NCBI GenBank assembly: GCA_943788755.1
Contig: CALSRM010000003.1
Coordinates: 1,240,001 to 1,304,000 of the forward strand
From: an uncultured Flavobacteriales bacterium
GTDB lineage: Bacteria; Bacteroidota; Bacteroidia; Flavobacteriales_D; Parvicellaceae
Direction: 5' to 3'
DNA: 64,000 nt
Both the position numbers and the translations under genes were made by a program. The notes below the pieces were generated by a model that saw nothing but the letters and a program-made list of their open reading frames with translations, was not told the origin of the DNA and made no database searches. How positions within the stretch are numbered: position 1 is the first letter of the stretch; every line of letters begins with the position of its first letter. Shown here one piece after another: positions 9,234-30,323 of the stretch.

Positions 9234-10217
9234 ATGAGTATAGAGGAAATATTAGATAATAGCCAGAAAGTTGTTATAACAACACATCAGTCTCCAGATG
9301 GTGATGCATTAGGGTCTTCCTTAGCATTGTTTGGCTACTTAGTAAAAAAAGGCTTTGATGTATGTGTAGTTGTTCCAGATAGTTTTCCCAAGTTTTTAAA
9401 TTGGATGAAAGGCACAGAGAATGTTCTCGTTTACAACCATGACGAAGATGTTGTAAAAGAACTAATAGGTGAAGCGGATTTAATATTTAGCTTAGATTAC
9501 AATAGTTTAATGCGCGTAGGTGGTGTTGGAGATTTAATTGAAAAGTCAACTGCTTATAAAGTGATGATTGATCATCATCTGCATCCAGCAGACTTTGCAG
9601 ATTGGATGTGTAGCGATACATCATCTTGTTCTACAGCTCAACTCATCTATAACTTTATTGAAGACTTTAATGATCTGGATTTAATCGATGATCAAATAGC
9701 AGAAGGCATTTATTGTGGCATAATGACTGATAGCGGATCATTTAGGTTTCCTTCTGTTCAAGCTAAAACACACTTGATCGCAGCAGATTTAATAAACAGA
9801 GGGTTAAATCATTCTCGAATCCATGAATTAGTACACGATGTAAACACGTTACCTAAATTACATTTATTAGGTTTTGCACTAAATGAAAAACTAAGAGTGT
9901 TACCAAATGTGCCTGTTGCGGTTATAGCAATAAACTGTGAAGAATTAAGTCGGTTTAACTACAAGAAAGGTGATACGGAAGGTTTAGTTAATTACGCGTT
10001 ATCTCTAGAGGGAATTGAAATGGCAGCTTTTATCAAGGAAGATGATAATAAAGTAAAAATGTCATTTCGATCAAAAGGAGAGATCGCTGTGAATGAGTTT
10101 TCAAGCCAGAACTTTAATGGAGGAGGGCATAAAAATGCAGCTGGTGGAATTAGTTTTACATCTTTTGAAGAGACGGTGGAATTATTCGAATCTAAGATTG
10201 TTGAGTTTTTAATATGA
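9234..10217 (+). CDS. DHH/DHHA1 phosphoesterase, NrnA-like (nanoRNase / pAp phosphatase)
   Basis: 327 residues. Metal-binding motifs of the DHH superfamily are THQSPDGDALGSSLAL (near 17), FSLDYN (near 84), the name-giving MIDHHLHPADF (near 113) and MTDSGSFRFPS (near 163). The DHHA1 substrate motif GGGHKNAAGG is near 295. Family knowledge: NrnA-type enzymes degrade 2-5 nt RNA and 3'-phosphoadenosine 5'-phosphate, or c-di-nucleotide products, in the cytoplasm. The length is typical. The stop overlaps the start of the FKBP lipoprotein by four bases (ATGA), so these genes are translationally coupled, the usual Flavobacteriia order. Confidence 0.9.
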   Translation: MSIEEILDNSQKVVITTHQSPDGDALGSSLALFGYLVKKGFDVCVVVPDSFPKFLNWMKGTENVLVYNHDEDVVKELIGEADLIFSLDYNSLMRVGGVGDLIEKSTAYKVMIDHHLHPADFADWMCSDTSSCSTAQLIYNFIEDFNDLDLIDDQIAEGIYCGIMTDSGSFRFPSVQAKTHLIAADLINRGLNHSRIHELVHDVNTLPKLHLLGFALNEKLRVLPNVPVAVIAINCEELSRFNYKKGDTEGLVNYALSLEGIEMAAFIKEDDNKVKMSFRSKGEIAVNEFSSQNFNGGGHKNAAGGISFTSFEETVELFESKIVEFLI

Positions 10218-13285: not shown

Positions 13286-14296
13286 TTACAAACTAGCAGC
13301 TACTGATTTAGAAAGATTGATTCTGTACCTAAGTAGCATTTCCATTCCCCCTCTTCCATTAGTGGCAACTGACAAACCAGACATATTTAAGTCATAACTG
13401 ATGCCCAAAGAAAATTCTGCAAAATTTAAGAATAGGGTTGTATAAAATGCATCCCCAATTCTCACATAACTACCCAATGAAATAGTGGATTTATCATAAT
13501 ATCCAGTGTATTTAGAACTCTCTTTAAGCGAGTATATAAAGTCATTTCCGATTGATAATGATTGGTTTGGCCCTTGTATAAAGTAAATGAAATTTGGTGA
13601 AAAAGCTAATTTAGAACCAATTTTACTAAATTCCCCTCCTCCATGAATAGTATGTTTTCGATAAAGGTTTTCATTTCCATTAAGCAATGTGTTTTGTGGC
13701 GTTAATAAGTGTGCAACAGAAACGCCAAAATTTATGGAATTTTGATTATTAAGTTTTCCAAAGTAATACAGCCCTGAATTAATGTCAAATTGAAAAGATT
13801 TATCAGTAACCAACGTTTCGCCACTCTCTAAATTATTATCAAAAGTTGACCCTGTCCATTGTTGGTCCCAAGTCAAAGATTCCATACTTGCGAACCTTTG
13901 AAAAAATGAAGGTTGAATGCCTAGTGCTAGTTGATGATTCTCAGCTATTTCAATTGCGTAATTTATGCTGATATTGGCAACATTAGTCGTTAATTGACTA
14001 TCACCAGATTTATCGTTGTAAAAATTGACACCTAATCCTAAAAAACTATTATTTGATTTTCCTTTCATCAGTTTAGCATCTACACTTGCCGAGATTGTAT
14101 TGTATGGGTTTGAACTAATCGATTTCCACTGGTTTTTAAACCCAGTAAACACTTGGATATCACCAGGGAAAAACCCAGTTGACCCAGGATTTATTGCTAT
14201 TGGTGAGGCGTAAAACATACTGTAGTGTCTGTCTTGTTGTGCTTGTCCATTAATAAAGATAATCAAGGCCAATATGCTAAATGATAATTTTCTCAT
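13286..14296 (-). CDS. PorP/SprF-family T9SS outer-membrane protein
   Basis: 336 residues from MRKLSFSILALIIFINGQAQQ, a Sec signal; an upstream in-frame ATG six codons earlier is unlikely. The family opening DRHYSMFYASPIAINPGSTGFFPGD is clear, and a beta-barrel pattern runs to the end. PorP/SprF proteins are outer-membrane partners of T9SS substrates with type B C-terminal domains; SprF is needed for SprB delivery. It follows the 1,342-residue adhesin gene by about 20 bases, the standard adhesin-SprF pair. A second such pair is at 46802-55797. Confidence 0.9.
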   Translation of the reverse strand: MRKLSFSILALIIFINGQAQQDRHYSMFYASPIAINPGSTGFFPGDIQVFTGFKNQWKSISSNPYNTISASVDAKLMKGKSNNSFLGLGVNFYNDKSGDSQLTTNVANISINYAIEIAENHQLALGIQPSFFQRFASMESLTWDQQWTGSTFDNNLESGETLVTDKSFQFDINSGLYYFGKLNNQNSINFGVSVAHLLTPQNTLLNGNENLYRKHTIHGGGEFSKIGSKLAFSPNFIYFIQGPNQSLSIGNDFIYSLKESSKYTGYYDKSTISLGSYVRIGDAFYTTLFLNFAEFSLGISYDLNMSGLSVATNGRGGMEMLLRYRINLSKSVAASL

Positions 14297-14315
14297 GTCG
14301 TTTTGTTTGAACAAT

Positions 14316-17300
14316 TTATTTAACCAAAGTTATGTTTCCTTTTAACGAGCCTTTTTCTCCATTGGAGTATTTGTATTCCAAATAGTAAGCAAAGACGCCT
14401 GTGTTTTCCGGTTTTCCTTTGTAAGTCCCATTCCAACCCGTGGATAGGTCGTTAGATTCAAAAACCTTCTCTCCGTATCTATTGTAAATCATTAAAGTAA
14501 AAGATGCAATTCCAGAGCCTCTTACAAAAAGTATATCGTTATGCATGTCATTATTTGGAGAGAATGCGGTTGGTATTCCAATAACCGATTCTAATTCCTC
14601 AAAAACTTCTACCATTTGACAAGTGGTATCTGCACAGCTCGCTGCAGTATATGCAATTAAACAAATTGCGTATGATCCTTCAGAGGTATAAGTAACAGAT
14701 GGTTCGAAATCGGTAGACGTTGTTCCGTCTCCTAAATCCCATAAATATGTTACTGCATCATTAGATGAATTATTGGTAAGTACTAAAGTTTCGCCAAGAG
14801 AAAGCGGATTGCCAGATAAATCGAAACCCGCAATGGGAGCACCTGAATTACTGATTGAAATTGGCCCAAAAGAATCCATACAGCCATTATCATCAGTAAC
14901 TATCAAAGTGTACTCACTATTAGTTAAGTCAGTCGCATCCAAATTTCCTGCTATTCCATTCCACGTATATGAATAAGGAGTAGTTCCACCTGTAACAGAT
15001 ATTCCCGTAATTGAACCATTCCCTGAATAACAAACCTCATCTGTTATATTAATTGGTGTGGGGTCAATTGATGGTCCATCAATAAAACCAACTATAATTG
15101 GTCCCATATTCGAAGAACATCCATTTCCATCGGTAACAATAAGGGTGTAATTCCCTCCAGAAAGTCCTGTTAAATCCTCTGTAATGCTGTTATTTCCATT
15201 CCAAGTATATGAATAGGGAGGTAATCCTCCAGATGAAGTAATTCCAATTATGGATCCATTAACAGATGAACATGTTTCGTCAATAATATCGATTGCAGAG
15301 CTATCTATGGTTGGTCCTGAATTATCAATTATTGTATACGGATTTGTTGTAAATATGCACCCTACATTGTCCGTAATTGTAAGTGTGTAAACTCCTGCTA
15401 ACAGGCCTACCGTATCTGCGGTAAGGCTTATTGTTCCATTCCATTCAAAGGTGTAGTCTGGAGTTCCGCCAGAAACTGTTATGCCTGTTAATGAACCACT
15501 TCCTTGGGTGCAAGCATCGTTAACAATTGTTAATGTTGTTGTTTCGACATTTAAACCTAAATTTTGAATTGTAATAAAATTGGAGTTAACAACACAACCA
15601 AATGCATCTGTAACAGTAAGAGTATAACTTCCACTTCCTAATAAAGAAGTATCCGAAGTCAAAGTCGAGTTTCCATTCCAACTATAACTAAGTGGAGCGT
15701 TTCCTCCAATTGCTTCGATACCAGTTATTACACCATTTGTTGAACCACAAGTCTCATTTGTTACCACTAAACTAGATGTGTCCAATAAAGGAGCTGTGTT
15801 GTCAATTACCGCATGTGGTCCTGTTTGGTTTGTGCATCCACCACCATCCGAAACAATTAGTGTGTAGCTACCTGCCGCAAGATCTGCGGTATCAGCAGAT
15901 AAAGTAGTATTACCGTTCCATGAATAAGTAAGCGGAGCTGTTCCTCCTGAGGCCGTTATGCCAGATATGTCACCATTGGAAAGTGTGCATGATTCATCCG
16001 TTATGCTAAGCCCACTTATGTCAATTGAAGGTCCTGAAACATTAGATATTACATGGGGTCCAGTAGAAGTCGAACATCCTAATGCATCAGTTGCTACTAA
16101 TGTATAACTACCAGCAGCAATATTTGCTAAATCCTCATCCGTTGAAGCTGAACCATTCCAACTATAAGTAATAGTGCCAAATCCGCCAGTTGTAGTAATT
16201 CCTGTAATGCCACCATTTATATTTCCACAATTTTCGTCCGATATTACGATGTTAGTTACATCTAAGGCAATACTTGAAGCACTCCCGACAACATAAGTTC
16301 CAACAGTCGTTATACATCCCTTTGCATCGATTACCTCTAGTGTATAATTACCGGCTGAGGCACCTGTTAAATCTAATGCCGTTGTTGTTCCATTCCATTC
16401 ATAAGTCAATGGAGCAGTTCCTCCTGATATGGTAATTCCAGAAATTGTTCCGTCACCAAGGCCACAATTTTCATCACCGATAACGACAGATGCATCGTTA
16501 AATGCAACTGGTGGGGACATAATAACCGAAACAGGTATTAAATAATTACCAGGACAAGTTCCAACCCAATAGGTAGTGTTGGCAGTTAACACTCCTGTTG
16601 TTAATGCGTTGGTTCCAATAATATTCCCACCTACTTCGGCATCGTACCATGTTATAGTTCCTACCAAGGTTCCAGTAACAGAAGCAGTTAAAGTAGATGT
16701 ATTACCACTACAAATTGTATCATTTGTAGTGGTTAAAAAGAAATTAGATATTGTTTCATTTGGTAAACCAATGCCACCAGATGTTGCTCCATTTGGAGGA
16801 AATTCTGTTAGTCCGTCGGAATTGGTTACACCATTCATTCCTCCGTTTGAAGTTCGTATAATAGCACCATTTGAAATAGCGATATAGCCGCCTCCGCCAC
16901 CTCCTCCTGGCCCTTCTGCTTCGTTCATATCTCCAAGACCACCGTCAACTAGTGTCTGATCCCCTCCATTTCCTCCGTCAGTGCTTATGGAAATTCCGGA
17001 AACGGTCCCATTTGATTTAATAATAACGGTTCCACCCGCACCTGCACCACCTGCACCATCATTTCCAGAAATATTGAAAATTCCTGGATTAGTACCCGTT
17101 GTTATTTCTCCATTTTCTCCATTAGAAGTAATGTTTCCCGTTCCGGAAACATTTCCATAGTTCAAGACATAGATAATGCCTCCGCCGCTTCCACCACCAC
17201 CACCGGTACTAGAAGCTTCGTTTAAATCCCCAGCACCACCACCGCCTCCAAGATAAATTTTGCCAGATGAATAATCTAAAGGTCTACCACCCAATCCACC

Positions 17301-18326
17301 ATGGTTTCTTCTATCGTCACCATTCCACACAGTATTACCTGGCCCACTATTATTTGCATTTTGATTAGCGCCTGAAAATGTATATCCACCTCTTCCACCT
17401 CCAGATGAATTAAAATTCGAAATATTTATTGCTTCTTCATCCCAGGCGTTATTATAAGCTGGGTTTGGTACACCTACACCTTCATTCCAATTCAAAAAGT
17501 CTCCTGCGTTTCCGCCACCGCCACCGCCACCGTTGTGGGCATTTCCACCACCACCTCCATTGGCGGGTGCTCCTCTTCCAAATCTACCGCCGTTAAGATC
17601 GTACTCAGCGCCAAAACCTCTTATGCCTTCACCTTTTAATCCACCAGCATCCGAATTCATAATTGCATATTGAGCTATTCCTAAGGCAGATGTTGTTGTT
17701 GAAGAAGTTGCTCCTCTAAACCCAAGTTCCGAGGCTTCCATTGTTCCATTAATAATTAAATCATTGTTAACTTCTACGGCTAGAACTCCACCAATGCTTC
17801 CGTTCCAAGCTTGAGTGGTCATTGTCCCGCTTATAGTAAGGTTTTCGAAACGAGGAATTCTGATTACCTGAACATTTCCAGAAACAGTATAATCATTTGA
17901 AAGTCCACATCTCAGCTCTAATGAAGTAGAAGATGGAACACTTTTTACTTCTGCATATTCATAGAGACCGCAGTTATTGTAGTTTGCAATTTGCCCCCAA
18001 GAAGGGTCTAAAGGAAGGCCATACCATCCTGTACCTGACCATGGTTCTGGACTGCCGTTTATTATAGCCCCTTGTATCTGAATGATAAGGATTAAATCCC
18101 CTGGTTCCAAATCCCCTCCGAACCAACTATATGAATTTCCATTCATAGTAGAGCCAGCAACACTAATTGATGTGTTTCCAATTGAAGCATCGACTGTTAA
18201 TGTTGTAAACTCATTTACGATGGTTGTTCCAGTTTGTGTGTAAGAACCATGTTTTCCTTTTTGCCCGGTAGCTATACTAAAAGATAGTATAAGGAAAGCA
18301 GTTATAAATAAATTTGTTGTTTTCAT
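14316..18326 (-). CDS. Secreted T9SS adhesin with Gly-rich domain, seven SprB repeats and PKD domain
   Basis: About 1,336 residues from MKTTNLFITAFLILSFSIATGQ (Sec signal). A start nine codons earlier is possible but unlikely. Order: a Gly/Asn-rich beta-helix-like domain (residues about 170-500, many GGGGGG runs); an Ig-like piece with DTICSGNTSTLTASVTG; then seven SprB-type repeats of about 70 residues, each with D/N-E-x-C, x-G-x-I-x-G-I, GG...YSWNG and L-x-x-G-x-Y-T-L. Next come a PKD unit (YLWDLGDGTTSTDFEPSVTY) and a type B gliding-motility C-terminal domain (IPTAFSPNNDMHNDILFVRG). It is a cell-surface adhesin exported by T9SS, co-transcribed with the PorP/SprF gene. Confidence 0.9.
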   Translation of the reverse strand: MKTTNLFITAFLILSFSIATGQKGKHGSYTQTGTTIVNEFTTLTVDASIGNTSISVAGSTMNGNSYSWFGGDLEPGDLILIIQIQGAIINGSPEPWSGTGWYGLPLDPSWGQIANYNNCGLYEYAEVKSVPSSTSLELRCGLSNDYTVSGNVQVIRIPRFENLTISGTMTTQAWNGSIGGVLAVEVNNDLIINGTMEASELGFRGATSSTTTSALGIAQYAIMNSDAGGLKGEGIRGFGAEYDLNGGRFGRGAPANGGGGGNAHNGGGGGGGNAGDFLNWNEGVGVPNPAYNNAWDEEAINISNFNSSGGGRGGYTFSGANQNANNSGPGNTVWNGDDRRNHGGLGGRPLDYSSGKIYLGGGGGAGDLNEASSTGGGGGSGGGIIYVLNYGNVSGTGNITSNGENGEITTGTNPGIFNISGNDGAGGAGAGGTVIIKSNGTVSGISISTDGGNGGDQTLVDGGLGDMNEAEGPGGGGGGGYIAISNGAIIRTSNGGMNGVTNSDGLTEFPPNGATSGGIGLPNETISNFFLTTTNDTICSGNTSTLTASVTGTLVGTITWYDAEVGGNIIGTNALTTGVLTANTTYWVGTCPGNYLIPVSVIMSPPVAFNDASVVIGDENCGLGDGTISGITISGGTAPLTYEWNGTTTALDLTGASAGNYTLEVIDAKGCITTVGTYVVGSASSIALDVTNIVISDENCGNINGGITGITTTGGFGTITYSWNGSASTDEDLANIAAGSYTLVATDALGCSTSTGPHVISNVSGPSIDISGLSITDESCTLSNGDISGITASGGTAPLTYSWNGNTTLSADTADLAAGSYTLIVSDGGGCTNQTGPHAVIDNTAPLLDTSSLVVTNETCGSTNGVITGIEAIGGNAPLSYSWNGNSTLTSDTSLLGSGSYTLTVTDAFGCVVNSNFITIQNLGLNVETTTLTIVNDACTQGSGSLTGITVSGGTPDYTFEWNGTISLTADTVGLLAGVYTLTITDNVGCIFTTNPYTIIDNSGPTIDSSAIDIIDETCSSVNGSIIGITSSGGLPPYSYTWNGNNSITEDLTGLSGGNYTLIVTDGNGCSSNMGPIIVGFIDGPSIDPTPINITDEVCYSGNGSITGISVTGGTTPYSYTWNGIAGNLDATDLTNSEYTLIVTDDNGCMDSFGPISISNSGAPIAGFDLSGNPLSLGETLVLTNNSSNDAVTYLWDLGDGTTSTDFEPSVTYTSEGSYAICLIAYTAASCADTTCQMVEVFEELESVIGIPTAFSPNNDMHNDILFVRGSGIASFTLMIYNRYGEKVFESNDLSTGWNGTYKGKPENTGVFAYYLEYKYSNGEKGSLKGNITLVK

Positions 18327-18474
18327 AGTTTGCGGTAAAGACGCCATGAGCATATCAATTGTTGTTTAAAGATGGGTTAAATTACAAATATTTCATACAC
18401 TAACAATGTTGTAGACTTCAAAAACCCTGCGTTTGAGTAAAAAGACTACATTTGTTTGCCTTAGCAATAAGAGA

Positions 18475-19188
18475 ATGAAGATAGCAATTTTAGGATACGG
18501 CAAAATGGGTAAAGTAATTGAAGGAATTGCTATAAAACGAGGGCATTTAATTGCATTGAAAGTTAATCAAACGAACCTGGATTTTGATCTAGAGTTGCTT
18601 AGGGACTGTGATGTAGCAATTGAATTTTCTTCCCCTGAGTCAGCGATAGAAAATATCCATAAATGTTTTGATGCTAATGTTCCTGTAGTTGTTGGAACAA
18701 CTGGATGGTATGCTGAATTTAATGCTGTTCAGGAAAGATGTATTTCTGAAAATAAAGGATTATTATATGCAACAAACTTTAGCGTAGGCGTTAACATATT
18801 TTATGAAATAAATAAAAAGTTAGCTACGTTAATGGATGCAAATAGTCAATATGATGTGGAAGTAGAAGAAACGCATCATACACAAAAATTGGATGCGCCT
18901 AGCGGAACAGCAATAAGTATTGCAGAAGGAATAATAGCTAATTTGGATAGAAAGGATTCTTGGAAAAATGACATGATTGTTTCTGAAAATGAATTAGCTA
19001 TAGAATCAATAAGAACTGAAGATGTGCCAGGAACACATGTTGTTAAATATGAGTCTGATATTGATGTAGTTGAGATAAAGCATGAAGCGAAAAACAGAAA
19101 TGGATTTGCATATGGAGCTGTTTTAGCTGCTGAATATATTCATGATAAAAATGGAGTGTTTACAATGAAAGATGTATTGTCTGTGTAG
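18475..19188 (+). CDS. dapB: 4-hydroxy-tetrahydrodipicolinate reductase
   Basis: 237 residues from MKIAILGYGKMGKVI, the NAD(P)-binding GxGxMG loop. An open frame continues 14 codons upstream but the glycine loop fixes this start. Further signatures: VVVGTTGWY near 77, NFSVGVNIFYEINKK near 101, the substrate motif VEETHHTQKLDAPSGTA near 129 (catalytic His, Lys) and the C-terminal FAYGAVLAAEYI. It makes tetrahydrodipicolinate for lysine and meso-diaminopimelate in the cytoplasm. A TACATTTG -7 box is at 18447-18454 with only a weak -33. lepB follows by about 20 bases, the usual Bacteroidota order. Confidence 0.96.
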   Translation: MKIAILGYGKMGKVIEGIAIKRGHLIALKVNQTNLDFDLELLRDCDVAIEFSSPESAIENIHKCFDANVPVVVGTTGWYAEFNAVQERCISENKGLLYATNFSVGVNIFYEINKKLATLMDANSQYDVEVEETHHTQKLDAPSGTAISIAEGIIANLDRKDSWKNDMIVSENELAIESIRTEDVPGTHVVKYESDIDVVEIKHEAKNRNGFAYGAVLAAEYIHDKNGVFTMKDVLSV

Positions 19189-19211
19189 ATAAAAATCAAT
19201 AGAAAAGTAAA

Positions 19212-21008
19212 ATGGGAATACCACAAATATTATTGTATTTAATGATTGTAATTTATTTTGCTTCATTATGGAAAATTTTTGAAAAAGCAGGGCGGGAAAA
19301 ATGGGAAGGTTTCGTTCCAGGTTATAATATATGGGTATGGCTAAAAGTGCTAAACAAGCCTTGGTGGTGGATTTTCTTTTTTCCAATACCTTTCGTAAAC
19401 TTCGTAATAACCGTTGCTTGTAATGTAGAAACTGCCAGAATGTTTGGTAAATATAACCCCAAGGATACAATACTTACTGTCTTGGTTCCATGGTATATGA
19501 TTCCAGCTATAGCATACAAAGAAGAAAATGTGATTGTTGAGCCTACCGATTGGACAAAGAAAGGTGATAGAGAAAAAAGAAGTATACACGATCATCTTAC
19601 TTTATTTTTTATGGCCCCATTTATTGGACATGCATTATTAGTTGTTTTTAGGCTTACAGGTTCTAAAGACAAGGCGAATAAAAAAACAATGCCCAAGGAA
19701 TGGACAGATGCTCTGGGGTTTGCAATAGTTGCCGCTACTATTATTAGAGTCTTCTTTTTTGAAGCATTTACGATTCCTACCGGTTCGATGGAAAAAACTA
19801 TGTTAATTGGGGATTACCTTTTTGTAAATAAATTAAAGTATGGTGCTAAAATTCCTCAAACACCATTGTCAGTTCCGTTTGTACATAATAGAATTCCAGG
19901 AAGTTACACTAAATCTTATGTAGAATGGTTTAAAAACGATTATATGCGACTACCTGGTTATGGTGCAATAGAGCGAAACGATATCATGGTATTTAACTGG
20001 CCTGCTGGAGATACCGTTATCGTCCATGATGATGCAATTGCGCATGATTATTATTCTATTTTAAGAAATCATGCATTTACCATGAGCGGGGTATCAAGTT
20101 ATGAAGGATTTGATGGAATTAAGGATGTTATGATGACCAAAGCCAGAGAACATATTGCAAGTGGTGGTGCATTATATGCTAATCCTTCTGGAGGTTCGCC
20201 AATTACAAAAACTGGAGGTGTGATGTCGCATCCTGTAGATAAAAAAGAAAATTACATTAAAAGATGTGTTGCTGTTGGAGGGGATACAATAGAGATTATC
20301 AATGGCACTATCCATATAAATGGTGTTGCAGAGGAGATACCTGAATATGCTCAGTTTACTTATTGGTTTTATTTTAAAAATTATGAAGCTGCAATTCCAT
20401 TTTCTGATCAGTATCTCTATGAACATTACGAAATTTATCCATCTGGAATTCAAAGGGGTGAAATTGAAGTCGGAGATTCGCTGACAGGAGTAAAGAAGGT
20501 CAATGTTATGATTATGCCTTGTAGTAAACGAATTGCTGCTGAATTGACGAGTTTGACTGGTGTGGATAGCGCATCTGTAATTTGGGAAAAAAAGGGAGCC
20601 GATGTGGGGTATTCTTCAATATTCCCTAATGATATAAGTATAGATTGGACAAAAGATAATTTCGGACCGTTGTATATTCCTAAAGAAGGGGGAACAATCC
20701 AATTGAATGATGAAAACTATATTGCTTATAAAAGAGCTATAACAGCTTATGAAGGTAATACCTTGGAGAAGGTTGGGAAGGATTATTTGATAAATGGAGA
20801 AGCTGCAAAAACCTATACATTTAAGCAAAATTATTATTGGTTGATGGGTGATAATCGTCATGGTTCAGCAGATTCTAGATATTGGGGTTATGTTCCAGAA
20901 GATCATGTTGTAGGAACTGCTTCGTTTGTATGGTTTTCGAAAACTACAGAAAAAGGCTGGTTCGATGGCGGGGTTCGTTGGAGCCGAATATTTTCGTTTA
21001 TTAAGTAA
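19212..21008 (+). CDS. lepB: Signal peptidase I
   Basis: 598 residues, long for the family (E. coli 324) but common in Bacteroidota. The N-terminal part, with about three membrane helices, matches the DUF5684-like region. The catalytic Ser lies in IPTGSMEKTMLIGDYLF near residue 192 and the general-base Lys in YIKRCVAVGGDTIEI near 349. GDNRHGSADSRYWGYVPEDHVVG near 550 is box E. The long stretch 355-535 between boxes D and E is a beta-rich periplasmic insertion. It cleaves Sec signal peptides at the outer face of the inner membrane. Co-transcribed with dapB, and 8 bases before wbqC. Confidence 0.95.
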   Translation: MGIPQILLYLMIVIYFASLWKIFEKAGREKWEGFVPGYNIWVWLKVLNKPWWWIFFFPIPFVNFVITVACNVETARMFGKYNPKDTILTVLVPWYMIPAIAYKEENVIVEPTDWTKKGDREKRSIHDHLTLFFMAPFIGHALLVVFRLTGSKDKANKKTMPKEWTDALGFAIVAATIIRVFFFEAFTIPTGSMEKTMLIGDYLFVNKLKYGAKIPQTPLSVPFVHNRIPGSYTKSYVEWFKNDYMRLPGYGAIERNDIMVFNWPAGDTVIVHDDAIAHDYYSILRNHAFTMSGVSSYEGFDGIKDVMMTKAREHIASGGALYANPSGGSPITKTGGVMSHPVDKKENYIKRCVAVGGDTIEIINGTIHINGVAEEIPEYAQFTYWFYFKNYEAAIPFSDQYLYEHYEIYPSGIQRGEIEVGDSLTGVKKVNVMIMPCSKRIAAELTSLTGVDSASVIWEKKGADVGYSSIFPNDISIDWTKDNFGPLYIPKEGGTIQLNDENYIAYKRAITAYEGNTLEKVGKDYLINGEAAKTYTFKQNYYWLMGDNRHGSADSRYWGYVPEDHVVGTASFVWFSKTTEKGWFDGGVRWSRIFSFIK

Positions 21009-21016
21009 CTATTGCC

Positions 21017-21619
21017 ATGAAAGCAATATTAAGCTCGGTATATTTTGGCAGTATTGAATATTATACTGTTTTAAAAAATGCAGAAGAGGTATTGATAGAT
21101 TCTCACGAGCACTACACTAAACAAACTTATCGAAACCGTTGTGAGATTTATGGTGCAAATGGAAAATTGAATTTAACTATTCCCCTAATAAGAAGGGGAC
21201 AGCGAGTTCCTGTTAATGATGCTCAAATTGAAAATAGTCACGAATGGAAGAAGCTACATTGGAGGTCTATTGAGTCTGCATACCGTTCGTCTCCTTATTT
21301 TGAGTTTTATGAACATCATTTTAGTCCATTTTTTGAGAAAGACCACACGCATCTATTTCAGTTAAATCAGGAGCTTCAGAATAAAATAATTCAAATCCTG
21401 AACTTGGATGTAATTATAGAAGAGACAGATTCCTATGAAAAAGAGCATTCAGGTTATACTGATTATAGGGATATAATTCATCCTAAAATAGCACCAAAAA
21501 ATAAATTAGCGGATAAAAGGTATATCCAAGTATTTGAGAGTAAATATGGTTTTATACCAAATTTATCTATCTTAGATTTGTTGTTTAACGAGGGTCCAAA
21601 TACGATTTGCTTTTTATGA
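21017..21619 (+). CDS. WbqC-family protein
   Basis: 200 residues, full length for the WbqC (PF08889) family, with the opening AILSSVYFGSIEYYTVL and the motifs HYTKQTYRNRCEIYGANG and LTIPLIRR. WbqC-like proteins occur in O-antigen clusters and in the Bacteroidota dapB-lepB-wbqC locus; the biochemical role is not established. Its last 190 bases or so are present again as a diverged fragment after the next gene (22938-23152). Confidence 0.85.
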   Translation: MKAILSSVYFGSIEYYTVLKNAEEVLIDSHEHYTKQTYRNRCEIYGANGKLNLTIPLIRRGQRVPVNDAQIENSHEWKKLHWRSIESAYRSSPYFEFYEHHFSPFFEKDHTHLFQLNQELQNKIIQILNLDVIIEETDSYEKEHSGYTDYRDIIHPKIAPKNKLADKRYIQVFESKYGFIPNLSILDLLFNEGPNTICFL

Positions 21620-21633
21620 TTAAATATTTTTAA

Positions 21634-22902
21634 ATGAAATTAAAACCAACTTTAATATGGGTGTTTCTACTGGGGTTTTTGGTTTTTTTAAGTTTTAATA
21701 AGCACAGTAAGTCACCTTTGTTTTCATACCAAAGCGTTATTCATGCAGATAAAGCAGGGTACTACATTTATTTGCCAGCTTTTTTTATTGCTGGCATGAA
21801 TGTGGAAAAACTCCCCAATTCGATTGACAAGAAAACGGGGCAAGGTTTTCAAATTGATTTTGAGCAAAAAATAGTTAAAACAAAATATACTACTGGAGTT
21901 GCCATAATGGAATTACCTTTTTTTTTGGTAGCCCACGGAGCTTCGTATGCGCTCGGTAAAGAAACAAGCGGTTTTACAGCGTTTTATTACGGTGTAATAA
22001 ATATAGCATCGGTAAGTTACTTGATTATTGGCTTGCTATTGTTGTATCATTCGCTTCAGACAATGTTCTCCAAAAAGATTACAATCTATTCTCTTGCTTT
22101 TATTCTGTTAGGCTCAAACCTATATTATTATGCCGTGGACGAGACAGGAATGTCGCATGTTTATTCCTTTGCTTTGTTTTCTGCGCTCTTCTATTTGTTA
22201 GTTTTTCATGAGAAGTATGTGGGGAGGTCAATAAAATATGGCGTGATGATTGGTTTTGTTATGGGAATGATTGTCCTGGTTCGACCAACAAATATACTTT
22301 TCGTATTCATATTGGGTTTAACCTATTTTAGACAATTAAAGGAAATTGGCTTTATTAGGAATTGGAGGTTCTTATGTTCTGCAACCATTATAGGGGTATT
22401 TGTGTTTATTCCGCAATTGCTATACTGGAAGTGGGCTTATGGAAATTATTTTTCTTATTCATATGGAAATGAATCTTTTTCAAATTGGGATTCGCCAAAG
22501 ATTTTAGAAACGCTATTTGCACCAAATAATGGTTTGTTTACGCATAGTTTGGTTATGATTTTTGTTATAATTGGTTTGGGAATTATGTTGTATAAAAATC
22601 AGTTTCTAAGTAAAACGATTTTTATTCTGTTTGTATTAGTGACTTACTTGACCGCCTCTTGGTGGGTTTATACTTTTGGATGTGGTTTTGGAGCTCGAAC
22701 TTTTGTAGAGTATTTTGCCATTCTTGTCATTCCATTGGGGGTTTTAATTACTAAAATTGATTCGTCAAGACTTAAATACTTTCTGTATCCTTTATTCTTA
22801 CTGCTTATTATCGTGAATGTTAACATGTCTTATCATTATGATGAATGTTGGTTTGGTAACGGAAATTGGGATTGGGAAACCTATTGTGCTAACTTTTTCT
22901 AG
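21634..22902 (+). CDS. Polytopic membrane protein, GT-C glycosyltransferase-like
   Basis: 422 residues with about ten hydrophobic helices. The first helix is followed by a periplasmic loop HADKAGYYIYLPAFF with an acidic residue, as in GT-C (ArnT/PMT-type) lipid-linked sugar transferases. LVRPTNILFVFILGL near residue 214 and a late WWVYTFGCGFGARTFVEY motif also fit that fold. No family was identified with certainty and the substrate is unknown. It begins 14 bases after wbqC and is followed directly by a truncated wbqC copy, so it looks like an inserted cassette. Confidence 0.72.
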   Translation: MKLKPTLIWVFLLGFLVFLSFNKHSKSPLFSYQSVIHADKAGYYIYLPAFFIAGMNVEKLPNSIDKKTGQGFQIDFEQKIVKTKYTTGVAIMELPFFLVAHGASYALGKETSGFTAFYYGVINIASVSYLIIGLLLLYHSLQTMFSKKITIYSLAFILLGSNLYYYAVDETGMSHVYSFALFSALFYLLVFHEKYVGRSIKYGVMIGFVMGMIVLVRPTNILFVFILGLTYFRQLKEIGFIRNWRFLCSATIIGVFVFIPQLLYWKWAYGNYFSYSYGNESFSNWDSPKILETLFAPNNGLFTHSLVMIFVIIGLGIMLYKNQFLSKTIFILFVLVTYLTASWWVYTFGCGFGARTFVEYFAILVIPLGVLITKIDSSRLKYFLYPLFLLLIIVNVNMSYHYDECWFGNGNWDWETYCANFF

Positions 22903-22937
22903 TTGGATGGATTGTATTTAGCATCGCACGAAATTGA

Positions 22938-23152
22938 AATAATCTGTTTTAAAAGAAACAGAATTCTACCAAAAAGAGCATTCCAGTTATACTGATTATA
23001 GGGATACAATTCATCCTAAACTTGCACCGAAAAATAAATTAGCAGGTAAAAGATATATTCAAGTCTTTGAAAGTAAATACAGTTTTATACCAAATTTGAC
23101 CATCTTGGATTTGTTGTTTAATGAGAGACCAAATGCAATTAGTTATTTATGA
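22938..23152 (+). pseudogene. Diverged remnant of the 3' end of wbqC
   Basis: From about 22964 the sequence reads through to TGA at 23150-23152 and encodes YRDTIHPKLAPKNKLAGK and so on, matching the last 63 residues of the WbqC protein upstream (YRDIIHPKIAPKNKLADK). By eye about five in six bases agree. Weaker, frameshifted similarity continues back to about 22938. There is no start codon or N-terminal part, so it cannot be a gene. Its stop overlaps the end of the convergent lipoprotein gene. Confidence 0.85.
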
Positions 23153-23706
23153 TCTTGGTTATTCTCTTTTTGTGTTCTACGTGTATTGTTTATTTCACGG
23201 AGATATTTATCTGTTGACCTTTTGAATTGAACTAGTTCACTTGAACAACTTATAAATTTTTGTATTGGATCATCTGATTCTGTGTACGCTGCATTTAGTA
23301 TGGTTTCCGCATTCGTTTTCTTTTTGTTTGCATCTTCAAGTAAATAAGTTGTTTTATGTGTATACTCATTAGATTCTATATCTACTAACTTTTTAATATC
23401 GCGATTAAGTATTTGTAAATTATTTTCTAGCCCTACAATAGCATTAATATAGCCAGTAGTAGCTATATCATTTGCTTTTTGCATTTCTTTCATTTTTTCT
23501 TCCTCATCAGCAATAGTTATTGCTTTTTTCATTGCAGCATCAGCTTTTTCAAATTGTGCATCTATTTTTTTTGAGAAATACGGGTACTTATTTTTATAAT
23601 TTGTTATTGTAGTTTTATTCTGTTTCCAAGCAGCTTCTTCATTTTCAACACTTGTGCCGCATGAGAATAGTATTAATGTTACCAGGATAGTGAATATCTT
23701 ATACAT
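23143..23706 (-). CDS. Unknown lipoprotein
   Basis: 187 residues with a lipoprotein signal (LVTLILFSCGTSVE, Cys near 16). The mature part is strongly helical and rich in Lys, Glu and Ala (ADAAMKKAITIADEEEKMKEMQKAND), suggesting a coiled coil or helical bundle in the periplasm. It is not recognised as a known family. It follows sucD by 40 bases on the same strand, so it may be read from the sucD transcript; its 3' end overlaps the wbqC remnant by ten bases. Confidence 0.75.
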   Translation of the reverse strand: MYKIFTILVTLILFSCGTSVENEEAAWKQNKTTITNYKNKYPYFSKKIDAQFEKADAAMKKAITIADEEEKMKEMQKANDIATTGYINAIVGLENNLQILNRDIKKLVDIESNEYTHKTTYLLEDANKKKTNAETILNAAYTESDDPIQKFISCSSELVQFKRSTDKYLREINNTRRTQKENNQDHK

Positions 23707-23746
23707 GGTTTTGAATATTAAATTTTATTTACCTAAAACTGTTTTA

Positions 23747-24625
23747 TTAAGCTGTAACGCCCAGAATTTCAACCATTTTTTTTCCAAGGTCAGCAGGCGA
23801 ATCAACAACGTGAACACCGCACTCTCTAAGGATGGCTTTTTTGGCAGCAGCTGTATCTTCTTCTCCACCAACTATTGCACCTGCATGTCCCATTGTTCTT
23901 CCAGCAGGAGCAGTTTCCCCAGCAATAAAAGCTACAACTGGTTTTGTACCGTTAGCTTTAATCCACTTTCCAGCTTCAGCTTCTAAGTTCCCACCTATTT
24001 CACCAATCATAATAATTCCTTCAGTAGAAGAATCCTCCATCAATAATTGAACAGCATCTTTAGTTGTTGTTCCAATGATTGGATCACCACCAATTCCAAT
24101 AGCTGTAGTTTGTCCTAAACCAGCTTTTGTAATTTGATCTACTGCCTCATATGTAAGTGTTCCTGATTTAGAAACAATTCCAATCGTACCTTTTTTAAAA
24201 ATAAACCCTGGCATAATTCCAACTTTAGCCTCTCCAGCAGTCATTATACCTGGACAGTTAGGGCCAATCAATCTACAATCTTTGTCTGTAAGGTATTCTT
24301 TAACAGGAATCATATCTGCTACAGGAATTCCTTCTGTAATACATACGATAACTTTAATTCCTCCCTCTGCTGCTTCCATAATAGCATCAGCTGCAAACGC
24401 AGGTGGTACAAATAAAATAGATACATCTGCTCCCGTTTCTTTTACAGCATCTACCACAGTGTTAAAAACAGGTTTCTCTAAGTGAGTTTGGCCTCCCTTA
24501 CCTGGAGTAACTCCGCCAACTACATTAGTTCCATACTCAATCATCTGGCCAGCATGGAAAGTTCCTTCTCCTCCTGTAAACCCTTGAACAATTACTTTTG
24601 AATCTTTATTTACTAATACACTCAT
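23747..24625 (-). CDS. sucD: Succinate-CoA ligase (ADP/GDP-forming) subunit alpha
   Basis: 292 residues. The CoA-binding Rossmann part starts [45 protein letters not shown] is near 117, [14 protein letters not shown] near 148, and the phosphohistidine motif is [13 protein letters not shown] near 241 (His near 246). TCA-cycle interconversion of succinyl-CoA and succinate with nucleotide phosphorylation in the cytoplasm. The beta subunit is not in this window, which is usual for Bacteroidota. A TAACTTTG -7-like box lies at 24667-24660 on the minus strand; no good -33 is seen. Confidence 0.96.
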
Positions 24626-24713
24626 TTTTGTGTTTTTAATTTCTAAAATTTTAGATATCCAAAGTTAATAATAGAAATGAATATACTTCGGAATGCAATG
24701 TATTTTTTTAAAC

Positions 24714-24750
24714 AAAAAACCCGTCCCAATAATTATCGGGACGGGTTTTA
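24714..24750 (-). terminator. Intrinsic terminator of rpsA
   Basis: AAAACCCGTCCC, a short ATAATTAT loop region, then GGGACGGGTTTT: a 12-base perfect stem flanked by A and T tracts, 27 bases after the rpsA stop. Confidence 0.85.
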
Positions 24751-24776
24751 ACTATTTTGAAATAGAAATTATAGGA

Positions 24777-26813
24777 TTATTTTCCTCCTTCCATTTTCTT
24801 TTTTAAGTCAGCTAACACGTCTAAATCTCCAAGCGTAGATTTTTCTTGGTTACTATTGAGGTTTTGAACCGCTTTACGAGAGGCAGTAGATTTAGCTTTG
24901 TTTGCAGCTTCAGCAACTTCTCCCCAGATACCTGTATGAGAAACGATAAGCTTTTTACCTTCTTTGTTGAATTCAATCACTTTAAATTGTGCTTGTTCTT
25001 CAGTAGCTAGGTTAGCACCATCTTCTTTCTTCATGTGTTTTACTGGACAATATCCTTCAACACCATGCGTAAGAGAAACGATTCCCGCTTTATCTTTAAT
25101 CTTAATAACTGTTCCTTCGTGAATAGAATCAATTGAGAATACAGTTTCATATCCATCCCAAGGATTCTCCTCAGTTTGTTTATGTCCTAAACTCAATCTT
25201 CTGTTTTCTTTATCTAATTCAAGAACAACGATGTCTAATTCGTCACCTACAGCACAAAATTCAGATGGATGTTTGATTTTCTTTTCCCAAGATAAATCCG
25301 AGATATGAATTAAACCATCAATTCCTTCTTCTAATTCTACGAATACTCCAAAGTTAGTGAAGTTCTTAACTGCAGCTTTATGCTTAGATTGGATAGGGTA
25401 TTTAGCTTCAATACCTTCCCAAGGATCCGGCATTAATTGCTTCATTCCTAATGACATCTTTCTGAATTCTCTATCTAAAGTTAAAACTTGTGCTTCCACT
25501 TCGTCGCCAACTTTTAAGAAATCATTTGCTGTACGTAAGTGTTGACTCCAGCTCATTTCAGAAACGTGAATCAATCCTTCAATTCCAGCAGCAATTTCAA
25601 CAAATGCACCGTAATCTGCCAAAACAACAACTTTACCTTTGACAGTATCTCCAACTTTCACTTCGTCAGCAAGTGCTTCCCAAGGGTGAGAGTTTAATTG
25701 TTTAAGACCCAATGCAATTCTTTTCTTGTCATCATCGAAGTCAAGAATAACAACATTGATTTTTTCGTCCAATGTAACAACCTCTTCTGGATGATTAACA
25801 CGTCCCCAAGAAAGGTCAGTGATATGGATAAGTCCATCAACACCACCAAGATCGATAAATACACCGTAAGAAGTAATGTTCTTAACTGTACCTTCCAATA
25901 CTTGTCCTTTTTCCAGGCCAGACATAATTTGTTTCTTTTGTTCTTCTAACTCAGCTTCAATAAGTGCTTTGTGAGAAACAACAACGTTTTTAAATTCATT
26001 GTTAATTTTAACAACTTTGAATTCCATGTTTTTACCAACATACTGATCGTAATCTCTAATCGGTTTAACATCAATTTGTGAACCAGGTAAGAATGCTTCA
26101 ATTCCAAATACATCTGCAATTAAACCACCTTTCGTTCTACATTTAACAAATCCAGTAATGATTTCCCCAGTCTCTAACACTTCGTTGACTTTTTGCCAAG
26201 CTCTGTGCATACGAGCTGTTTTGTGAGAAACAACCAATTGACCCGTCTTATCTTCCATTGTTTCAATGTAAAGATCAACAGGGTCACCAATTTTAAGGTC
26301 TGGGTTGTATCTAAATTCATTTTTAGGTACAACACCTTCACTTTTATATCCTATATTAATAACAATTTCTTTTGTAGTAATTGCTATTACAATACCATTT
26401 ACAACTTCTTTTTCAGCAATTTGAGAAAGAGTTCCTTCGTATACATCACTTAACTTGGCTTTTTCTTCAGCTGTGTAAGTTTCAATTCCAGCTTCAAAAC
26501 CGTCCCAATCAAAGTCAAGATCAGCAACTATTTTTGCAGCTTTAGCAGGAGCTTTCTTTTTTACTTCAGTTTGTGTTTCCGCTTTTGGAGCTTCTTCAAC
26601 AACTGTTTCAACTTCAACTTTTTTCGCTTTAACTGTTTCCTTTTTAGGAGCAGCTTTTTTCGCTGGAGCTTTTTTCACTGGAGTAGCTTTTACAGCTTCT
26701 TCCTTCTTAGCTTTGGGAGTTGATTTTTTTGCTGGAGCCTTTTTAGTCTCAGCTTTTACAGTTTTTTTAGCAGCAGGTTTTTTTGCTGCTTTTTCTTTTT
26801 TATCTTCAGCCAT
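24777..26813 (-). CDS. rpsA: 30S ribosomal protein S1 with an H1-like Lys/Ala tail
   Basis: 678 residues from MAEDKKEKAAKK; the in-frame ATG eight codons upstream lacks support. Six S1/OB domains follow, recognised by NGIVIAITTKEIVINIGYKSEG, GEIITGFVKCRTKGGLIADVFG, GQVLEGTVKNITSYGVFIDLGG, GDTVKGKVVVLADYGAFVEIAA, a fifth KNFTNFGVFVELEEGIDGLIH, and a degenerate sixth. S1 recruits mRNA to the 30S subunit. Unusual is the first stretch of about 105 residues: Lys-, Ala- and Pro-rich repeats (KKAPAKK, KKTVKAETKK) like histone H1 tails, absent from most S1 proteins. A promoter and a palindromic leader lie upstream. Confidence 0.95.
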   Translation of the reverse strand: MAEDKKEKAAKKPAAKKTVKAETKKAPAKKSTPKAKKEEAVKATPVKKAPAKKAAPKKETVKAKKVEVETVVEEAPKAETQTEVKKKAPAKAAKIVADLDFDWDGFEAGIETYTAEEKAKLSDVYEGTLSQIAEKEVVNGIVIAITTKEIVINIGYKSEGVVPKNEFRYNPDLKIGDPVDLYIETMEDKTGQLVVSHKTARMHRAWQKVNEVLETGEIITGFVKCRTKGGLIADVFGIEAFLPGSQIDVKPIRDYDQYVGKNMEFKVVKINNEFKNVVVSHKALIEAELEEQKKQIMSGLEKGQVLEGTVKNITSYGVFIDLGGVDGLIHITDLSWGRVNHPEEVVTLDEKINVVILDFDDDKKRIALGLKQLNSHPWEALADEVKVGDTVKGKVVVLADYGAFVEIAAGIEGLIHVSEMSWSQHLRTANDFLKVGDEVEAQVLTLDREFRKMSLGMKQLMPDPWEGIEAKYPIQSKHKAAVKNFTNFGVFVELEEGIDGLIHISDLSWEKKIKHPSEFCAVGDELDIVVLELDKENRRLSLGHKQTEENPWDGYETVFSIDSIHEGTVIKIKDKAGIVSLTHGVEGYCPVKHMKKEDGANLATEEQAQFKVIEFNKEGKKLIVSHTGIWGEVAEAANKAKSTASRKAVQNLNSNQEKSTLGDLDVLADLKKKMEGGK

Positions 26814-26866
26814 ATGGCATAAATTATTGTATCTCACTTTTCGGTTTTGTGAGAGTTGTTAAACTT

Positions 26867-26883
26867 AACCTGTCCGACAGGTT
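26867..26883. promoter_or_regulatory. Palindrome in the rpsA leader
   Basis: AACCTGTCCGACAGGTT, eight pairs around one central base, placed about 54 bases before the rpsA ATG and about 15 bases after the predicted -7 box. In the mRNA it would form a tight hairpin. It could be an autoregulatory site for S1, or a DNA operator. Confidence 0.45.
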
Positions 26884-26897
26884 TCCTTTTCGGGGTG

Positions 26898-26927
26898 CAA
26901 ATGTAGTGCTTTTGATTGTAAAAACAA
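26898..26927 (-). promoter_or_regulatory. Bacteroidota-type promoter of rpsA
   Basis: On the minus strand: TTG at 26927-26925, exactly 19 bases of spacer, then TACATTTG at 26905-26898. The same architecture stands before tRNA-Lys and rnpB in this window. Confidence 0.75.
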
Positions 26928-27329: not shown

Positions 27330-29346
27330 ATGCGCAATTTATTTTTCATACTAATCGCTGGAGCTGTTATCATTTTGTCAAGCTTTCTTTTTGACGAGAG
27401 TATAGGAGATAATGTGATATCAGTAGAAGTTGCACCGAAAATATCTGCCTGCATTTTTAACGCAGAATAATAAATGGGTTGATAGTGTTTTCAATACGCT
27501 TTCCGAAGATGAAAGGATTGCACAACTATTCATGGTAGCTGCTTATTCCAATAGAGATAGCTCCCATCAACAAGAAATAGAGAAGTTAATAACGGATCAA
27601 AAAATAGGAGGATTAATCTTTTTTCAAGGTGGCCCAATCAGACAAGCTAACTTAACGAATGCCTACCAAGCTAAAGCAAAAGTTCCATTATTAGTGTCAA
27701 TTGACGCAGAATGGGGGTTGGCGATGCGCTTGGATAGCACCATGAAGTTCCCTAAGCAAATGACTTTAGGTGCTGTATCCGACAATAATCTGATTTATCA
27801 AATGGGGGAGCAGATAGCTATACAGTGCAAGCGTATGGGTATTCATATAAATCTTGCTCCAGTTGCGGATGTTAATAATAACTCGGAAAACCCAGTAATT
27901 AATTACCGCTCTTTTGGAGAAGACAAATATAAGGTAGCTAATAAAGCAATTGCATATATGAAAGGTATGCAGAATAAGGGTATTATGGCAAATGCAAAGC
28001 ATTTTCCCGGTCATGGAGATACCGACAGTGATTCCCATAAAACACTTCCGATTATTAAACACAACCAAGAAAGACTCGATTCTTTGGAGTTGTATCCTTT
28101 TCAACAACTGATTGATAGTGGATTGGGAAGTATGATGATTGCGCATTTGTATATTCCTAGTTTAGACGATAGGCCAAATAGGGCATCTACATTATCGGAA
28201 AATATAGTTACTGATTTACTTCAAAAAGAAATGGGTTTTGATGGACTTATTTTTACAGATGCTTTAAATATGAGAGGGGTGAGTGCATTTTACGATCCAG
28301 GTAAATTGGATGTAGAAGCTTTGTTAGCAGGAAACGATGTATTGTTATTTTCAGAAGATGTTCCTAAAGCAATAGAAGAGATTAAAACAGCTATCGATCA
28401 AAAATTAATCTCTCAAAAAGAAATAGACAGAAGGTGCCGTAAAATATTATCTGCAAAAGCATGGTGCGGATTGAATAAATACCAGCCAATAGAAACAGCT
28501 TCTCTTTCGGAAGACCTTCATAAAACCGAAGCGCAATTTGTAAATATGAAATTGTATGAAAGTGCATTGACACTTTTAAAAAATGAAGAAGATATAGTTC
28601 CAGTTATGAAGCTTTCAGAAAAGAAAATAGCATCTATTACAATTGGTGCTACTAACAAAAATGAGTTTAATACCTCGATTGATCGATATTGCGATTTTGA
28701 TCCTTTTTCCTATTCTTTAAAACCATCGAATGAAGAAATTACAAAGGCTTTAGATGAGCTAAAGGAATACAATTTGTTGTTGATTACAATTCATGATATG
28801 AATCAACGGCCGTATCAAAATTTTGGGATAACGAAACAACTGAACAGCTTGGTAGATAGCTTAGCATCGAACCATAATGTGATTGTAAATGTTCTCGGGA
28901 ATCCTTATTGCCTGAATAAGTTCGACGGTGCGCATAAGGCAAAAGCTATTTTAGTAAGTTACGAAGAAGAAGCATTAGCCAAGGATATAAGTGGGCAAAT
29001 GATTTTTGGAGGTTTGCCAATAAAAGGGATGTTGCCAGTTTCGATTAAGAACCATAAGAGTGGTGTAGGAATTATTATTGAGAATTCAATTCGACTGAAT
29101 TATACAATGCCGCAAGCCTTAAATATAAGTCCAAAAGACTTAAGTGGCGTTGATTTAATTGTATCTGAAGCCCTAAGGGAAAAGGTTTTTCCGGGTTGTC
29201 AGGTTTTTGCAGCGAAAGACGGAAGGGTGTTTTATTATAAATCTTTTGGTAATCATACTTATGATAAGGAGCTCTACCCGTTAAAACAACAGATATTTAT
29301 GACTTGGCTTCAATTACAAAAATTGCAAGTTCAACGGCGTCCTTAA
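27330..29346 (+). pseudogene. GH3 N-terminal half of a NagZ-like/beta-lactamase fusion gene (frameshifted, part 1)
   Basis: ATG at 27330 opens a signal peptide (MRNLFFILIAGAVIILSSFL) that leaves frame near the A-run 27438-27441. From there the frame with YLPAFLTQNNKWVDSVFNTL runs on to 29346, one base too many separating the two. The GH3 domain carries NAKHFPGHGDTDSDSH and the catalytic Asp in FTDALNMRGVS. It resembles NagZ beta-N-acetylhexosaminidases that cleave muropeptides. A second shift near 29277-29279 (CCC where a fourth C would restore frame) ends it before the beta-lactamase half. Either a pseudogene or two consensus indels in a gene of about 990 residues. Confidence 0.8.
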
Positions 29347-30323
29347 TTAAGCTGCAAAGCGAAGGAGTTGTGGATGTAGACAGTTCGTTAAGTGCTTATT
29401 TACCCGATATGGTAGATACATCTGCTTATAAAAATATTCTTTTGAAGGAGATGTTAACCCATCAAGCAGGATTTACTCCATGGATACCGTTTTATATTAG
29501 AACACTGCACAAGGGAAAGCCTAAATTTGAATTGTACAGCGTCAAGCAAACCGACTATTTCTCGGAGCGTGTAGCTGATAACCTTTTTGCACACAAAAGC
29601 CTACGAGATTCTATATTCAAAAAGATTTTATCTACGAAAGTTTCACCGGTCAAGAAATATAAATACAGCGATATAGGGTATTATTTTATCAATGAAATAA
29701 TCCGAAATAAAACGAATATGACTCAAGACGATTATGTGATGAACGCATTTTATAAACCACTTGGGTTAGGTAATATTGGCTATAATCCTAGACAGAAATG
29801 GAATTTGAACCGAATTCCTCCAACCGAAAATGATAAAGCTTTTAGAGGGCAATTGATTCAAGGAGATGTTCATGATCAAGGTGCGGCCATGTTGGGAGGG
29901 GTTTGTGGACATGCGGGGCTTTTTTCTAATGCAAATGATTTAGGTGTAATGATGCAGTTGTTTATGCAATATGGAGAATATGGAGGCGAGCGTTTTTTTA
30001 AAGAAGATGTGGTAAAATATTTTACTTCGGCTCCTTATTTTGCAACAAATAAAAACCGAAGAGGAATAGGTTTTGACAAAGCGGTAAGAGCTGGAGGAAG
30101 TGGCCCAACTTGCAGTCAATGCACATCGAACGAAAGCTTTGGGCATTCGGGTTTTACGGGAACAATTACTTGGGCAGATCCAAAAACAGGTTTTGTTTAT
30201 GTGTTCTTGTCTAATCGAGTAAATCCAGATGCTGAGAATCGAAAAATCATATCTCTGAGTATCCGTACGCGTATTCAAAAAATATTTACAGATGCCATAG
30301 CGAAAGCTGAAAAGTCTATTTGA
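29280..30323 (+). pseudogene. Beta-lactamase-like C-terminal half of the same gene (frameshifted, part 2)
   Basis: Frame 3 continues the protein from VKTTDIYDLASITK, where SITK is the Ser-x-x-Lys active site of class C beta-lactamase/PBP4-like serine hydrolases. Further motifs: YKYSDIGYYFINE (tyrosine motif), GHAGLFSNANDLG and FGHSGFTG (KTG-like box). There is no start codon or signal in this frame, so it cannot be an independent exported enzyme. Fusion of a GH3 domain to a serine hydrolase is a standard Bacteroidota arrangement for peptidoglycan turnover. Its last 33 bases recur after the SPFH gene (31316-31348). Confidence 0.82.

Follow-up and report, generated by a model that had tools for sequence, protein, structure and literature searches.

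How did a complete wbqC gene come to be followed by an intact membrane-protein gene and then by a second copy of its own 3' end? The arrangement lies in a 64,000 nt window (the whole stretch of DNA analyzed) from an uncultured Flavobacteriales bacterium, where the gene order is dapB, lepB, wbqC, membrane gene, second wbqC 3' end (Table 1). A repeat search found the two ends to be a gapless direct repeat of 207 nt with 84% identity and a spacing of 1533; the runner-up direct repeat in this 5.5-kb search was 34 nt, so that the 207-nt repeat is far beyond chance. The initial annotation had described the same order of parts, with a distal copy of 190–215 bases that was about 15% diverged by eye, and both the gapless repeat and the intact ORF between its copies bear this description out. 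The distal copy has kept an open frame and, as had also been noticed, its stop in the same place (TGA, 23150-23152), and it matches WbqC residues 133-200 at 76%. The open frame begins at the junction itself, and no start codon lies nearby.

The membrane gene starts 14 nt past wbqC. On its other side, alignment to the sister genomes starts at about 22948, that is, the junction on the distal side is non-homologous, and the alignment places an illegitimate join at the right end of the spacer, at about 22946-22950. The sequence around this point (22870-22960) gave no significant match elsewhere in its own genome or in the sister genomes (best E 0.02), and promoter and terminator scans of the locus returned hits at the shuffle level. 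In a repeat survey that covered 864 kb of the same genome (27% of it), this was the only case of a gene end paired with a non-ORF remnant by a direct repeat. A 128-nt direct repeat with 82% identity was seen on the minus strand in two adjoining ORFs of 199 and 255 aa (G000:C3:995216-995343 / 996325-996452).

Table 1. Features of the wbqC locus, with positions numbered from the first letter of the window.
Feature	Position	Strand	Evidence or remark
lepB-like signal peptidase (Peptidase_S26)	19212..21008	+	PF10502, E 3.2e-38
wbqC, complete, bears the proximal 3' end	21017..21619	+	WbqC PF08889, E 7.7e-35
Repeated wbqC 3' end, proximal copy	21414..21620	+	207-nt repeat, 84%
GT-C-fold (predicted) membrane protein gene, intact, 422 aa	21634..22902	+	AlphaFold2 model; absent from the sister loci
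44-nt spacer, membrane gene stop to wbqC remnant	22903..22946	+	Unalignable to the sisters
Distal displaced wbqC 3' end, codons 133-200	22947..23153	+	207-nt repeat; collinear with G003 downstream DNA
Small lipoprotein-like gene, tail-to-tail overlap with the distal wbqC stop	23143..23706	-	Same overlap in G003

The locus was compared with three other genomes of the genus (G001, G002 and G003), and is comparable only in G001 and G003; neither lepB nor sucD found a match in G002, whose assembly probably lacks the region. Both comparable genomes show the order dapB-lepB-wbqC-(lipoprotein)-sucD-rpsA, with a single wbqC end and without the membrane gene, and their WbqC proteins share 86-87% identity with that of the window; dapB identity in the same comparison is 85-90%. 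The initial annotation had raised the case of sisters that carry both copies as full wbqC genes, and this is not seen in G001 or G003. Directly downstream of its single wbqC end, G003 has the convergent lipoprotein gene followed by sucD and rpsA, which is the order found here beyond the distal copy, and the lipoprotein gene (L062, 8880-9443) has the same tail-to-tail overlap with the wbqC stop (9434). The last 201 nt of the G003 wbqC align to both copies in the window, that is, the matches of 18432-21619 and 22952-26913 overlap in G003, and no other junction of collinear blocks with G003 has an overlap this large over about 290 kb. A recurrent mechanism was considered and set aside, there being one scar in 864 kb and no other collinear junction with a 200-nt overlap of sister coordinates. 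Adjacency of lepB and wbqC is common in the rest of the family, and none of the wbqC flanks fetched from the family holds the membrane gene.

Two other differences were seen among these loci. The lipoprotein gene is present in the window and in G003 and absent from G001 (L061, 9976-10091), and is a second presence/absence gene in the same gap. In G003, lepB (L062, 10050-11844) and the 5' end of wbqC, near 10000, carry apparent frameshifts relative to the window and to G001, reflecting either assembly error or real damage.

The scar probably marks the gain of a gene when two congeners recombined, homologously on the left and illegitimately on the right, with lepB, wbqC and the membrane gene coming in together. 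The incoming DNA would derive from a diverged congener in which the GT-C membrane gene immediately followed the lepB-wbqC pair. A homologous crossover may have occurred near the dapB/lepB boundary, at an estimated 19.2-19.3 kb, while an illegitimate join about 45 nt past the membrane gene would have led into codon 133 of the resident wbqC. With a complete wbqC coming in, function would have been kept and the membrane gene added behind lepB-wbqC, while the last 68 codons of the resident gene would have been stranded without a start, drifting neutrally since. A single step, homologous on one side and illegitimate on the other, would thus account for the added gene, the complete wbqC and the displaced end. 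Homologous recombination with a related genome had been suggested in the initial annotation, and this part is retained for the left side; the one-sided combination with an illegitimate join fits better because homologous recombination alone leaves no partial duplication. Entry may have been by homology-facilitated illegitimate recombination (HFIR), for example after natural transformation. Homologues of ComEC and DprA are encoded in the genome and DNA uptake is possible, both proteins being widespread and no proof of competence.

Which side of the membrane gene is foreign was assessed from divergence along the region. The third-position ratio of window-to-sister over sister-to-sister divergence is 0.93 for dapB, 1.73 for lepB and 1.49 for wbqC, and on the right side it is 0.79 for the distal copy, 1.32 for sucD and 0.83 for rpsA. 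Third positions of lepB diverge from the sisters by 35%, against 18.6% in dapB just upstream, and there is a jump at the dapB/lepB boundary when lepB and the 5' part of wbqC are compared with dapB (p=1e-4); the lepB-wbqC side and the distal-rpsA side differ at p=1e-10. By this measure of sequence divergence, the two sides of the membrane gene differ in ancestry. When 182 collinear genes were ranked by their divergence from G003, wbqC fell at the 95th percentile and lepB at the 80th (the latter computed over 429 codons, because lepB of G003 is frameshifted), with dapB at the 14th, the lipoprotein gene at the 41st, sucD at the 34th and rpsA at the 7th. These percentiles favour an incoming tract of about 3.7 kb that would comprise lepB, wbqC and the membrane gene, and lepB is probably its left part. 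The proximal wbqC end would then be the incoming copy, the direction that the initial annotation had chosen and the one we favour.

The main competitor is the mirror image, in which lepB-wbqC-membrane gene is resident and a sister-like segment, running from the wbqC 3' end through the lipoprotein gene and sucD to rpsA, was brought in, its right end recombining homologously at about 26.9-27.4 kb and its left end being joined illegitimately behind the membrane gene. We consider it rather unlikely, although the choice of background matters: the ratio for the other genes of the window is 1.56, and by that measure the right side is anomalous and not the left. From the distal copy through rpsA, divergence from the sisters is below this local average (0.95 versus 1.56, p=4e-13), while lepB-wbqC is indistinguishable from it; genes at 12.8-18.4 kb diverge as much as lepB-wbqC, and divergence varies across the whole region. 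Among the 182 genes, however, it is wbqC and lepB that stand out, the distal-side genes lying between the 7th and 41st percentiles, and dapB, at the far left, is as near to the sisters as the right side is, leaving lepB-wbqC as the odd tract. The sister gene order is also the distal one. The genes at 13286-18353, which are PorP/SprF-like and large surface-protein-like, lie at the 91st-96th percentile of divergence from G003.

The two wbqC ends can also be compared directly as alleles. Over 206 nt the proximal and distal copies are 84.0% identical, and G001 and G003 are 87.4% identical. The distal copy shares 89.3% with G003 and 84.0% with G001, as against 86.9% and 81.6% for the proximal copy, which makes it the more sister-like of the two (bootstrap 0.84); the expectation that sisters lacking the membrane gene would carry a single wbqC end closer to the distal copy is thus borne out in both G001 and G003. 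The distal copy differs from G003 at 22/206 positions and from the proximal copy at 33/206, and its closer similarity to G003 has a bootstrap of 0.994. A four-taxon comparison of the 3' ends gives a star with no internal support (split sites 4, 4 and 3). Private changes, counted as nonsynonymous to synonymous, are 7:2 in the distal copy, 5:8 in the proximal copy, 3:9 in G001 and 0:2 in G003, these being small numbers from a short repeat (9 distal, 13 proximal) for which p values are approximate. The three other branches pool to 8:19, from which the distal copy differs at p=0.019, and the neutral expectation of 707:260 is fitted by the distal copy but not by the other three pooled (p=3e-6).

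The distal copy has changed at 9/201 positions (4.5%), about 0.3 of the proximal synonymous change of 8/52 (about 15%; p=0.013), and its decay, as read from these counts, is limited and of a neutral type. This is too little change for a copy that has been free since the split, so that the two copies would have diverged before they were joined; most likely, the alleles drew apart in separate lineages while both were under constraint, and the distal allele was inactivated afterwards. Measured by distal neutral changes, the time since the event would be about 0.3 of the proximal branch.

These comparisons bear on an event in situ, in which the membrane gene was inserted with a long target duplication, or the wbqC end was duplicated in tandem, and the distal copy then decayed. 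The star would allow a duplication at about the time of the species split, and insertions with long target duplications are known for restriction-modification genes, according to the passage of PMC3031569 that cites Nobusato et al. 2000. As in the insertions mentioned there, the cargo here lies between long direct repeats; the copies here, however, behave as different alleles (84%) with different histories and not as duplicates of a single target. An origin in situ is improbable, given that distal change is only about 0.3 of that expected at the proximal synonymous rate (p=0.013), that the distal copy resembles G003 more than it does its presumed twin (bootstrap 0.994), and that ancestry differs between the two sides.

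In att-type integration at gene 3' ends, the gene end is restored, the native end is displaced and the cargo comes to lie between them. The anatomy here is similar, but it is very improbable that a small element integrated site-specifically into the 3' end of wbqC and restored the gene with its own end, since the insert spans 1.53 kb and holds a single gene that encodes no recombinase, the scanned neighbours (housekeeping or surface genes) gave no recombinase match, the distal edge has 9 mismatches in its first 37 nt and a longest exact run of 13 nt, the cargo has no match in phages or viral contigs and a single 32% match in plasmids, and no second such scar occurs in 864 kb. The analogy with integrative elements drawn in the initial annotation was dropped for the same reasons: nothing points to an integrase or a mobile element, and the distal edge shows no crossover core shared exactly by both ends, although later change could have blurred a short one.

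Recombination between congeners, the preferred reading, makes the scar a known kind of event, of which it is a new example with unusually direct dating. HFIR has been described in Streptococcus pneumoniae, Acinetobacter baylyi and Pseudomonas stutzeri (PMC3240628), and the features in common are homology at one end, a non-homologous join at the other, and foreign DNA trapped beside the anchor. Unlike those cases, the event here is read from a genome, and part of the gene end is present twice, since the donor homology reaches further downstream than the join does. An HFIR-like process has also been proposed for displaced immunity genes of the Vibrio cholerae T6SS and hypothesized for orphan Rhs 3' regions (PMC5361080). 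As in the Vibrio cholerae displacement arrays, a shared upstream region would anchor the incoming cassette and the old downstream part is left behind, but the target here is an ordinary, conserved single gene, the cargo is unrelated, and the remnant is without sign of use. HFIR has been described from transformation and conjugation experiments, and a naturally occurring product, in which the anchor gene is intact and the cargo is followed by a displaced allele from which the event can be dated, would be a useful template for counting such events in genomes. There is perhaps an even chance that the displaced wbqC end is a natural, datable record of one-sided interspecies recombination, in which case scans for short, decaying gene ends next to full genes could measure the rate at which HFIR adds genes in the wild.

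For the host, the outcome would be a GT-C glycosyltransferase-like gene added behind lepB-wbqC with wbqC unbroken. Pfam yields no match for the membrane protein itself, and PMT_2 is matched weakly by 3 of 15 homologues; the NCBIfam model for LA_3751/LA_3752 glycosyltransferase is matched at E 1e-10 with a score of 40.9, below its cut-off of 200. An AlphaFold2 model (pLDDT 84, pTM 0.88) matches ALG12 with a Z of 25.1 over 347 residues and ArnT with 21.6 over 343, and the protein is predicted from it to have the GT-C transmembrane fold, so that the GT-C label of the initial annotation was right at the level of fold. The predicted fold resembles those of the GT-C superfamily (ALG12, ArnT and OST catalytic subunits) over nearly its full length (Z 20-25), whereas sequence identity to the named enzymes is 9-10%. 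GT-C enzymes keep a catalytic acid in the N-terminal region or first extracytoplasmic loop. In the membrane protein, Asp39 of an N-terminal DKAGYYIYLP motif, a candidate for this acid, is invariant in an alignment of 15 homologues. A function in surface glycans is likely.

The nearest relatives of the membrane protein are at most 44% identical and occur in scattered Bacteroidota. A donor search across the family, the order (399 genomes), GTDB contigs, plasmids, phages and viral contigs found no relative above 44%, none of the relatives is next to wbqC in the flanks that were fetched, and no donor was found. Descent from an old paralogue was rejected: the paralogue in the same genome is only 32% identical and has 80% orthologues in both sisters, and the inserted gene is therefore without an orthologue in them.

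Comparison with G003 revealed two further differences. In the window, a frameshift near 29.3 kb splits a glycoside hydrolase family 3 plus beta-lactamase-like gene into two overlapping ORFs (27430-29346 and 29304-30323), where G003 has a single 997-aa ORF. Outside the window, at about 1045 kb of the same contig (G000:C3), collinearity with G003:C1 breaks and the direction flips (235.6 kb versus 295.5 kb of G003), a large rearrangement.
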